Below are positions 29,850-32,353 of a stretch of 41,138 bases of DNA, one piece after another; position 1 is the stretch's first letter, and each line of letters opens with the position of its first letter. Below the pieces are notes generated by a model. It ran no database searches, was not told where the DNA came from, and saw only the letters and a program-made list of their open reading frames with translations. This stretch comes from Planctomycetota bacterium (GTDB taxonomy: Bacteria > Planctomycetota > Phycisphaerae > UBA1845), in contig JAJRSP010000052.1 in the NCBI GenBank assembly GCA_024278775.1, positions 1-41,138 of the forward strand, read 5' to 3'. A program made the translations under genes and the position numbers.

Positions 29850-30683
29850 TTATTCAAGAGTGAGTTGGACGTCACCGTGTCGAACCCGGTGCCGGCCGTT
29901 TTCGGCGGCCGCGTAAAGGCGAAGCACGCTTTCCGCCGCAAGCGATTTTCCGAACTGGGCGGCTACCGTGTCCGCGTCGCCGTCACTGCCTTTGGGGCAG
30001 TCCCACGAGACGATGCATGGTTTGGTCGCCGTGGTCTCGGACGCAGCCCGTCGCAGGAGATAGACGCACGCTCCTTCGGACCAGACATCTCCGTTGTCCG
30101 GCCCGTGCCGCGAGCCGCCCATCCCGGACACCAATGCGTCGGACAAAACCTCGAACCCGCCCGCGACGGCTAGGTCCGCTTCATGGTTCGCGAGCAAAGC
30201 GCACGCTTTCGCGATCGCGCTCATCCCGGATGACGCTCCCGAAGCCAGCGTGAGGTTGGGGCCTCGGATTCCGAACGCGCGGGCCATCGCCCCAGAGACG
30301 AAGTTTCCCACGGTTTGCGGAAAGTGAATCGGGCTGACAAATCGGGCGCTCTGCTCGCGCACCTCCTCGGCGAACTGTATCATTCCGGCTTGGCCTGCGA
30401 ACGCGCTCCCCAGCACAAGCGCGGTCCGATCCGAGGCCAACTCGGCAGCGTCGATTCCCGCGTCGGCGCAGGCGTGGCGGATCGCGAGGGCTGTGATCCA
30501 GGCGGATCGATCCTGCTTCACCTCGTTTGGGGCATCGGCCAAGTCTTCGAGAAGCGTATCGGGCACAGCCCAATAGAGCGCGCCGGCTGGGCAGAGCGCT
30601 TTCGGGGCGGCAAACACGTCACCGGCTGGACCGGCTGCGAACGGTGCGACGACCCCTGTTCCTTCGATGGTGATTTTCGACAC
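29850..30683 (-). CDS. Short ketoacyl-synthase-like protein lacking the active-site Cys
   Basis: 277 residues from GTG 30683, with GGAG seven bases upstream; the ATG at 30716 lies in an inserted element. The sequence follows the thiolase fold of beta-ketoacyl synthases (ITIEGTGVVAPFA, RHACADAGIDAAEL, ALVLGSAFAG, GNFVSGAMARAFGIRGPNLTLASGASSG, AGGFEVLSDALV, EGACVYLLRR). Where active enzymes have T-A-C-x-S-G, this one has S-G-A-S-S-G, so the nucleophile is replaced. The usual C-terminal half with two His is much reduced. It resembles the short ketoacyl-synthase-like partners (chain-length-factor type) and probably acts as a non-catalytic partner or is decaying. Confidence 0.75.
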   Translation of the reverse strand: MSKITIEGTGVVAPFAAGPAGDVFAAPKALCPAGALYWAVPDTLLEDLADAPNEVKQDRSAWITALAIRHACADAGIDAAELASDRTALVLGSAFAGQAGMIQFAEEVREQSARFVSPIHFPQTVGNFVSGAMARAFGIRGPNLTLASGASSGMSAIAKACALLANHEADLAVAGGFEVLSDALVSGMGGSRHGPDNGDVWSEGACVYLLRRAASETTATKPCIVSWDCPKGSDGDADTVAAQFGKSLAAESVLRLYAAAENGRHRVRHGDVQLTLE

Positions 30684-30697
30684 GTGAGTTCTCCGGT

Positions 30698-30955
30698 GGT
30701 AACAGGTCAGCCGCATGCAATGTCATATGACGATAAACACCGCAGGGACGAGACTTTTTCGTGCAGACGCAACGATTGCCCTCTTCCTCCCCTCCTTGCG
30801 AAGGAGGGGCTGGGGGAGGTTCTTTTTGCAAAGCGACGCGTTGCTCTGGTCCAAACCCCCCTGTATCCCCCCTTTTTAAGGGGGGAAAAGATTGTTCCCT
30901 GTCGCAAGGAAAGGACAAAAAATATGCACACATTGCACATGGCTGACCTGTTACC
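30698..30955. mobile_element. 258-bp MITE-like element with terminal inverted repeats and 6-bp target duplication
   Basis: Left end GGTAACAGGTCAGCC (30698-30712) and right end GGCTGACCTGTTACC (30941-30955) are perfect inverted repeats of 15 bp, extendable to 26 bp with three mismatches (TGCAATGT at the inner side). TCCGGT flanks the element at both ends (30692-30697 and 30956-30961), which fits target-site duplication. Inside are two strong palindromes: CCCCTCCTT/AAGGAGGGG (30789-30809) and CCCCCC/GGGGGG around TTTTTAA (30867-30885). No transposase is encoded. It sits about nine bases upstream of the ribosome site of the ketoacyl-synthase-like gene and may control or disrupt its expression. 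Confidence 0.85.
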
Positions 30956-31140
30956 TCCGGTGATGGTGAAGCTGCGAATCTAACGGTTCGCCGCCCGATT
31001 GGCCACCGAAGTCGAAAATCCTGCCGTCGATCGCCCTTTCGGGACGGTTTTGGCAATTCACGTAAACGCTTTGGGCAGCGTGGTTTGCCTGACTGTTAGC
31101 CTTGGATTTTCCGCTTTTCTCTATTATCGGAAGAAGTTTC

Positions 31141-31171
31141 TTGACACAGGATGCCCTTCGGCGCATACTAT
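31141..31171 (+). promoter_or_regulatory. Sigma70-type promoter of the small RNA candidate
   Basis: A perfect -35 box TTGACA at 31141-31146. The -10 is CATACT (31164-31169, 17-bp spacer) or TACTAT (31166-31171, 19-bp spacer). Predicted start of transcription is near 31176-31178. Confidence 0.65.
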
Positions 31172-31177
31172 TGTTGT

Positions 31178-31257
31178 GTTCCGGAAGCCACCTCCTCCGG
31201 CTAAAGGAACCGTTCACAAGGCACCTCGGGAGAGAGAGTCTCGCGGGGTGTTTTTTT
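31178..31257 (+). ncRNA. Candidate small RNA with an anti-Shine-Dalgarno loop (about 80 nt)
   Basis: The predicted start coincides with a 5' hairpin. The outer stem is GTTCC (31178-31182) with GGAAC (31206-31210). The inner stem AGCC/GGCT closes a nine-base loop ACCTCCTCC (31190-31198); an alternative stem CCGGA/TCCGG also leaves CCACCTCC in the loop. The loop is complementary to GGAGG-type ribosome sites and resembles the 3' end of 16S rRNA. A short linker then leads to a strong intrinsic terminator. No start codon with an open frame is present. Neighbouring genes are more than 300 bp away on the downstream side. The RNA is predicted, not observed. Confidence 0.65.
31222..31257 (+). terminator. 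Intrinsic terminator of the small RNA candidate
   Basis: CACCTCG pairs with CGGGGTG (one T-G pair), followed inward by one mismatch and GAGA/TCTC with a five-base loop; then TTTTTTT at 31251-31257. Confidence 0.82.
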
Positions 31258-31373
31258 GCGCACACCGCGGCGACGCGATTTCACCTGTTCATTTTGAGTT
31301 TCCGGGCGGGTCGGTGCCGGTTCAGCGGGCGGTTTTTTCGGGGGTCGTCGTGGTTATTGTGGTCGTCTGACGG

Positions 31374-31588: not shown

Positions 31589-32353
31589 TTGTTCAATGTG
31601 AAGCGAATTCGGTTGGTTGCGATGGTCGTCGGTGTTGCGGTTTTGGCTTGCGGATTGGGGATTGCGCGGGCGGACGGTCCGGAAGAAACGGTGGAGCAAA
31701 TCCTGGACCGTATCGAGGCGCGCGGGGATTCGATTGAGGATATTCGCTGTCGCGTCGTGTTTTCGGAAGAGGATCGCATCACCGAAGACACCACGCTGCG
31801 CACGGGGACGATCGCGTTCAAACGCCGGAAGCCGTACCCGATTTTTCTGATCACGTTCGACAAGGTGGTGCAGGACGGGCGCGTCAGCCGTACGCGAAGC
31901 TGGTATTACTTTGACGGTCGCTACTTTTTCGAAGCCAAGGAGCGGTCGAAGTCGATCATCAAGCGCGACTTGGCACCGCCGGGGACGGAACTGGATTTGT
32001 TCAGCATCGACAAGGCGCCGTTCCCCATCCCGTTCGGCCAGAAAAAGGCTGAAATACTGGCTAACTTCGATGTTGTGCTGGGGTCGCCGGCGGAGGATAT
32101 GCCCACGGCGAAGCATCTTATCTGCACGCCGAAGCCAACGAGTCGATTCGTGAGACAGTATGAACGCGTTGAGTTCTTCGTAGCGCCGGGATTGAATCTT
32201 CCTCGGCGGATCATCATCACAGCCAACCCGGCGGACAAGGTGATGACGGCTGACTTTCCCGACCTTTCGACCGGATCGATCAATGCCGGCTTGCGCGACA
32301 AGGACCTTCACCTGCCGCGCGATACATCAACGTACACTGTGGCTGAGGAGTGA
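31589..32353 (+). CDS. LolA-like secreted outer-membrane lipoprotein carrier family protein
   Basis: 254 residues starting at TTG 31589, which has GGGAG seven bases upstream; the next start codon (GTG 31598) is too far from it. A signal peptide (VAMVVGVAVLACGLGIARADG) is followed by a LolA-type repeat of strands: VEQILDRIEARGDSIEDIRC, GTIAFKRRKPYPIFLITFDK, SWYYFDGRYFFEAKERSKSI, RDLAPPGTELDLFSI. This half-open beta-barrel fold binds lipids or lipoprotein tails in the periplasm. No lolB or lolCDE gene is near, so it may be one of the many uncharacterised LolA-like proteins of planctomycetes. tdh follows 45 bp downstream on the same strand. Confidence 0.7.
   Translation: MFNVKRIRLVAMVVGVAVLACGLGIARADGPEETVEQILDRIEARGDSIEDIRCRVVFSEEDRITEDTTLRTGTIAFKRRKPYPIFLITFDKVVQDGRVSRTRSWYYFDGRYFFEAKERSKSIIKRDLAPPGTELDLFSIDKAPFPIPFGQKKAEILANFDVVLGSPAEDMPTAKHLICTPKPTSRFVRQYERVEFFVAPGLNLPRRIIITANPADKVMTADFPDLSTGSINAGLRDKDLHLPRDTSTYTVAEE

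Follow-up and report, generated by a model that had tools for sequence, protein, structure and literature searches.

What might be regulated by a small RNA whose hairpin loop mimics the anti-Shine-Dalgarno (anti-SD) sequence, in a phylum where little has been learned about gene regulation? The question is raised by a locus in a 41,138-nucleotide stretch of planctomycete DNA, the whole of which is called the window below. It is quite likely that the locus encodes an independently transcribed, trans-acting small RNA of ~82 nt, predicted to block translation of a subset of PEP-CTERM mRNAs through two seeds. The features on which this reading is built are the following.

31141..31169, + strand: promoter, with -35 TTGACA at 31141-31146 and -10 CATACT at 31164-31169, 17-bp spacer
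31176..31257, + strand: small RNA of ~82 nt (folding, conservation, start-codon check)
31178..31210, + strand: 5' hairpin with a nine-base loop (folding)
31178-31182 and 31206-31210, + strand: outer stem, GTTCC/GGAAC (folding)
31186-31189 and 31199-31202, + strand: inner stem, AGCC/GGCT (folding)
31190..31198, + strand: anti-SD loop ACCTCCTCC, seed 1, complement of GGAGGAGG
31211..31221, + strand: single-stranded linker CGTTCACAAGG, proposed seed 2, complement of GUGAACG
31222..31257, + strand: intrinsic terminator, hairpin at 31222-31250 and then seven T
31230..31238, + strand: GAGAGAGAG within the terminator, its sole copy in the window
29850..30683, - strand: ketosynthase-like gene (PF00109), a conserved divergent neighbour rather than a demonstrated target

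Promoter and hairpins lie where the original prediction, made from the DNA of the window, had put them. TTGACA and CATACT stand 17 bp apart and match the consensus at 10 of 12 positions (1 such site in the 1 kb covered by a promoter scan, against 0.3 expected), and the 5' hairpin, its loop and the seven-T terminator are all present. The start of transcription, placed originally near 31178, is more probably at about 31176, and the expected length of about 80 nt becomes ~82 nt. Folding of 31176-31257 gives an MFE of -34.9 kcal/mol (z -2.42), and 4 of 200 shuffles do as well. The only starts within the RNA are GTG at 31176, which reads through without a stop, and GTG at 31248; with these two alone and no stop-bounded ORF, the RNA looks non-coding, as had been proposed. 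It also appears to belong to no named family: Rfam gave 0 matches in the window at gathering thresholds and, at E up to 10, weak matches only, alpha-r14 among them. The RNA's terminator was missing from the output of a simple terminator scan of the window. Directly 3' of its T-run, GCGC at 31258-31261 is kept in six aligned sequences; GCGCAC also stands 3' of an unrelated terminator in locus L006.

The RNA recurs in relatives. A DNA search found it in 4 of 60 relatives and in 5 of 51 family genomes, and a covariance model run on 114 genomes of the order found it in at least seven, with one strong match per carrier; as this search scored only 39 candidates in each genome, it may have passed over distant members. 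The seven carriers, all Phycisphaerae of the same family, were equated with Phycisphaerae OFTM258 (G001, the genome nearest to the window), OFTM321 (G016), OFTM285 (G030) and OFTM5 (G072), and with Planctomycetota Dive96_bin4.107 (G015), IP29b_bin.25 (G004) and OFTM371 (G034); with the window RNA they make eight members. A pattern scan of genome contigs gave 34 matches, the same seven carriers among them. The remaining 27 were judged to be chance; the covariance model was silent at those sites, its sole match in these loci (L060, 21 bits) lying elsewhere in the locus. In genomes other than these seven, the weak matches to the model lacked the loop on reading and were terminators or coding DNA.

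The RNA of G001 equals that of the window except for one T, and in three other genera identity is 84-90% over the entire RNA or the greater part of it. In six aligned sequences the proposed pairing holds in 100% of cells (114/114) versus 33-49% with the pairing slid, and this complete pairing, together with the cross-genus identity, places the RNA beyond chance. The segments CUCCUCC and CGUUCAC and the terminator's GAGAGAGAG are invariant in all eight members. Conservation of stem and loop in relatives, which had been suggested as a check, thus holds across the seven carriers; for the loop it is the core CUCCUCC that is constant, not the full ACCTCCTCC, which is replaced by ACUCUCCUCC or AGUCUCCUCC in two of the eight. 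The outer stem is longer in G004 and G034, and in G004 (GTTCTCG/CGAGAAT) its fifth pair changes by eye from C-G to U-A; the inner stem of G015 (GGUACC/GGUGCC) likewise keeps its pairing by eye. One terminator pair is altered on both sides, from C-G to U-A, in the six sequences. Such covariation is modest (both sides changed in 1 of 19 pairs, which 297 of 500 shuffles equal), and support for the RNA rests on conservation and not on covariation, which in the stems is weak. Among seven members, the near-identical G001 being excluded, the spacing of 17 between -35 and -10 is common to all and mean pairwise identity is 0.92 for the -35, 0.67 for the -10 and 0.30 for the spacer; judging from these values, promoter hexamers and RNA have been kept while the spacer diverged.

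In all seven carriers the RNA adjoins the ketosynthase-like gene divergently, while the genes 3' of the RNA vary between genera according to a rough ORF list. This constant neighbour beside a varying downstream side argues that the RNA is not a leader, and it is most likely a stand-alone locus. The ketosynthase-like protein (277 aa) matches the N-terminal ketosynthase domain only. Its gene was found at E below 1e-30 in 27 of 51 family genomes, 20 of them further genomes without the adjacent RNA, and no CCTCC-bearing small RNA was seen within 700 nt of the gene in these 20, some of which are cut by contig ends. The gene was considered as a target and set aside, its upstream region having no conserved ribosome-binding site. 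Between it and the small RNA, at 30698-30965 of the window, inverted repeats GGTAACAGGTCAGCC and GGCTGACCTGTTACC, ~240 bases apart, flank a block that by eye looks inserted; the corresponding interval in G001 is shorter.

Candidate targets were sought among the genes of relatives rather than those of the window's own genome. In the seven carriers, GGAGGAGG-N2-9-ATG occurs 195 times versus 70 for the reversed pattern. Some of these sites, when read, turned out to precede orthologous secreted proteins of ~180 residues with a PEP-CTERM C-terminal signal, two of them in G001 and others in G016, G004, G034 and G030, where a contig end truncates the gene. Each of these orthologues has TGAACG 9-13 bases 5' of GGAGGAG. 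TGAACG is the complement of the invariant linker, and the two elements follow the antiparallel order of the RNA with a spacing near its 12-base gap between seeds. In G015, also a carrier, the homologous PEP-CTERM gene has GGAGGAGG without GTGAAC. The pattern TGAACG-N5-17-GGAGGAG-N3-10-ATG, searched over 51 family genomes, gave 28 matches in 20 genomes. PEP-CTERM genes make up 9 of the 12 matches in the seven carriers (the C-terminus is seen in eight, and the ninth is an orthologue cut by a contig end) versus 0 of 16 in the 44 non-carriers, where for about three of the 16 the C-terminus seems to lie beyond the DNA read; by our own arithmetic the chance of this split is ~3e-5. By eye the nine represent at least three dissimilar proteins. 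The same two elements without a start codon were rejected as a target pattern, being unspecific and present in 45 of 51 genomes. Two PEP-CTERM proteins, G030:C332 (L253) and G072:C496 (L250), carry a CxxCH haem-like motif (NCSDCH and DCSDCH), and both seed complements are present at their genes. Rfam found no leader family at five target loci and only a group II intron; this intron domain (RF01999, 101.5 bits) lies 3' of the G016 PEP-CTERM target gene, at 1833-1952 of L175.

Tests independent of the motif gave a similar picture. PEP-CTERM genes were gathered by protein family alone (PF07589) in four of the seven carriers and in four non-carriers, with starts set by a home-made signal-peptide rule. 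In the four carriers 151 matches were obtained at E up to 1, from which chiefly those that passed the cut-off were taken; of 92 genes recognised, 86 were kept after dropping those with a start score <8 and adding L180 (genes kept per PF07589 matches: G001 26/40, G004 25/36, G034 19/30, G030 16/45). From the non-carriers, 34 of 54 matches at E up to 0.005 were kept. Between -80 and -14 of the 86 carrier genes the top hexamer is GTGAAC (19) and the top heptamer GTGAACG (13), so the second seed complement occurs in only 13 to 19 of 86 genes, often 5' of GGAGGAG. GTGAAC remains the hexamer with the highest enrichment when the sister genome G034 is left out (14/67 genes, 1.4 expected), with TGTGAAC (9 against 0.33) and GTGAACG as top heptamers. 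Carriers and non-carriers differ in GGAGGAG (21/86 versus 1/34, p 0.007) and in TGAACG together with GGAGG (13/86 versus 0/34, p 0.019); neither TGAACG alone (13/86 versus 3/34, p 0.55) nor GTGAACG alone (13/86 versus 1/34, p 0.11) clearly separates them. Within G001, GTGAAC followed by GGAGG is found at 6 of 26 PEP-CTERM genes. Among other genes it occurs at 0 of the 133 that have 100 nt of free DNA 5' of them (p 1e-5), and at 2 of 321 when all are counted.

By predicted duplex energy, which ignores accessibility, PEP-CTERM leaders come out ahead of other genes (p 2e-4), though in G001 four non-PEP genes outscore the best PEP gene, and only 1 of 26 PEP genes falls in the best 1% of the background and 6 of 26 in the best 5%. 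In telling PEP-CTERM mRNAs from others, the real 37-nt segment reaches an AUC of 0.710, above all 100 shuffles (mean 0.589, maximum 0.706, close to the real value); the loop alone gives 0.619 and the linker alone 0.626. Linker duplexes reach 11-12 perfect Watson-Crick pairs at L293 (G001), L283 (G004) and L180 (G030), with 12 at L293 and L180, and several targets have 11-15 contiguous linker pairs when G-U is allowed. Some sites also track the local linker variant, with CACAGG facing CCUGUG in G004 (L262, L283) and CACAAG facing CUUGUG in G030 (L180); at G001 C67:38166 and G030 C330 the complementarity does not extend to the variant.

These observations suggest how the RNA may act. Its partners would be the 5' untranslated regions of some of the mRNAs for PEP-CTERM proteins, which are surface or secreted proteins sorted by exosortase. 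The loop CUCCUCC would pair with the GGAGGAG ribosome-binding site and the linker CGUUCAC(AAGG) with the GUGAAC(G) element 5' of it, the order of elements in the mRNA mirroring CUCCUCC...CGUUCAC of the RNA, so that the two seeds are collinear. The linker would guide the RNA to the right mRNAs, and covering of the ribosome-binding site would repress their translation jointly. Since two stretches of the RNA match PEP-CTERM ribosome-binding regions in order and spacing, it probably lowers these genes as a set. The sequences show that the RNA gene is there and is conserved, that it complements the candidate leaders with its seeds in matching order, and that the complementary sites are enriched at PEP-CTERM genes; that the RNA is expressed, forms these duplexes in the cell and represses in answer to a controlling signal, we infer. 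The original prediction, in which a C-rich loop faces GGAGG sites of other mRNAs in a planctomycete, agrees with these matches. Its loop-only reading captured half of the picture: it overlooked CGUUCAC in the linker as a second seed, the shared GAGAGAGAG and the probable targets among PEP-CTERM genes. If true, the two-seed reading would provide a regulator, a target list and a directly testable two-seed rule, and would tie PEP-CTERM/exosortase surface-protein display to an RNA switch.

The shared element deserves separate treatment. GAGAGAGAG is common to the RNA's terminator and many target leaders: GAGAGA lies within 300 nt upstream of 52/86 carrier PEP-CTERM genes, 1/34 non-carrier PEP-CTERM genes and 10/321 other G001 genes, part of the 52 being purine-rich ribosome-binding sites near the start. 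GAGAGAGAG accompanies GTGAAC, being found at 16 of 19 genes with that hexamer versus 10 of 67 without (p 3e-8, counting orthologues of both G004 and G034). A hairpin of the form GAGAG..CTCT(C/T)TTTT occurs within 300 nt upstream of 11/86 carrier PEP-CTERM genes, and several leader hairpins lie by eye 3' of promoter-like TTGAAA/TAGACT pairs. Family-wide, 23 of 26 such sites were read (10 of 12 in carriers), and 18 of the 23 precede PEP-CTERM genes (16 by pattern, 2 by eye): 10/10 in carriers, one an orthologue cut by a contig end, and 8/13 in non-carriers. The latter proportion implies that the leader element either predates the small RNA or is more widespread; no small RNA was detected in G023, G063, G036, G009, G073 and G005, genomes that have the element at PEP-CTERM genes. 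The hairpin is likely an unnamed attenuator, present also in genomes lacking the small RNA. A GAGAGAGAG hairpin of this kind, which ends in CTCTCTTTTTTT and sits between the promoter-like pair and the start codon, is frequent in the family's PEP-CTERM leaders (L172, L175, L177, L178, L179, L180 and L344-L373).

Given this element, the leader might consist of a GAGAGAGAG terminator-attenuator, GUGAACG and GGAGGAGG, with the small RNA as a three-segment collinear antisense (CCUCCUCC, CGUUCAC, GAGAGAGAG) acting on both leader termination and ribosome binding; we regard this extension as unlikely. That the RNA is instead an activator, whose pairing would open the leader terminator, with a rise rather than a fall in PEP-CTERM expression, is quite improbable. 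It would contact GUGAACG just 3' of the leader U-run, and perhaps pair its GAGAGAGAG with the leader's CUCUCUUUU arm. Such anti-termination would suit the ten carrier hairpins, all preceding PEP-CTERM genes, the one GTGAACG directly 3' of a T-run in both G004 and G034, and the collinearity of CCUCCUCC-CGUUCAC-GAGAGAGAG with the leader's GGAGGAGG-GUGAACG-CUCUCU. However, the same pairing would also hide the ribosome-binding site, and the RNA's GAGAGAGAG sits inside its own terminator hairpin; moreover, 15 of 26 genes with GAGAGAGAG fail the leader-hairpin pattern, and the target at G001 C67:39132 has no GAGAGAG in 200 nt.

It is very improbable that the RNA serves chiefly as a decoy, titrating some protein that recognises the GAGAGAGAG of PEP-CTERM leaders. 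The skewed distribution of GAGAGA and the retention of GAGAGAGAG in 8/8 RNAs would fit this role, but it leaves the invariant loop and linker and their target complements unexplained, no result pointed to such a protein, and the leader element is also found in the six genomes mentioned above. Nor is the RNA at all plausibly a general anti-SD inhibitor, with a loop that pairs any GGAGG site and a linker that is structural only: the loop does contain ACCUCCU of the 16S 3' end GGAUCACCUCCUUUCU (this end was seen in 5/7 carriers), and the 195 sites against 70 suit a broad inhibitor, but the linker varies no more than the loop does, and the enrichment of the linker's complement is confined to particular genes. 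Least credible, and disfavoured already, is that the locus is an attenuator acting in cis on the gene downstream, a coding mini-gene or a hairpin that arose by chance, since, although promoter and terminator do lie 5' of an ORF at 31589, downstream genes vary between genera on a rough ORF list, the RNA lacks a stop-bounded ORF and it is kept in eight genomes.

Returning to the two-seed repressor, anti-SD hairpin small RNAs are already known in alphaproteobacteria. As expected of that trans-acting class, the planctomycete RNA has its own predicted promoter and intrinsic terminator and a loop, unpaired in the predicted fold, that complements the ribosome-binding sites of conserved candidate targets. 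In the rhizobial alpha-r14 RNAs (RF02344), the hairpins' unpaired CCUCCUCC motif pairs with translation initiation regions, and one member, NfeR1, silences ntrB by covering its ribosome-binding site (PMC10746234). Those RNAs have three hairpins, each with the motif, and are alphaproteobacterial with nitrogen targets (PMC10746234), whereas the planctomycete RNA has one hairpin and a separate linker seed; the different layout, the second seed and the predicted PEP-CTERM regulon would be what is new. Against the Rfam alpha-r14 model the RNA scores 11.6 bits (E 3.9), below the cut-off of 58.8, and in place of three hairpins with CCUCCUCCC it has a single one, with loop ACCUCCUCC or A(C/G)UCUCCUCC. 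The Cuckoo RNAs (CcsR1-4) of Rhodobacter, whose loops presumably carry CCUCCUCC, belong to the same C-rich-loop class. The CcsR RNAs occur in four copies and are matured from the transcript of an operon that includes the DUF1127 gene ccaF1 (PMC10253847), in contrast to the planctomycete RNA, a single own-promoter gene adjoining the ketosynthase-like gene, with one strong match per carrier rather than multiple copies co-transcribed with a DUF1127 gene. A limited search of open-licence literature, chiefly of titles, found no small RNA for PEP-CTERM genes and no planctomycete small-RNA regulon, and in the open-licence papers found to name PEP-CTERM the word sRNA was absent. The nearest parallel in PEP-CTERM control is the Sigma-54/PrsK-PrsR system, where a shared upstream signal likewise groups genes; there the signal lies in a DNA motif, reported from Proteobacteria only (PMC1569441), while the planctomycete case would combine an RNA-level signal with a small RNA.
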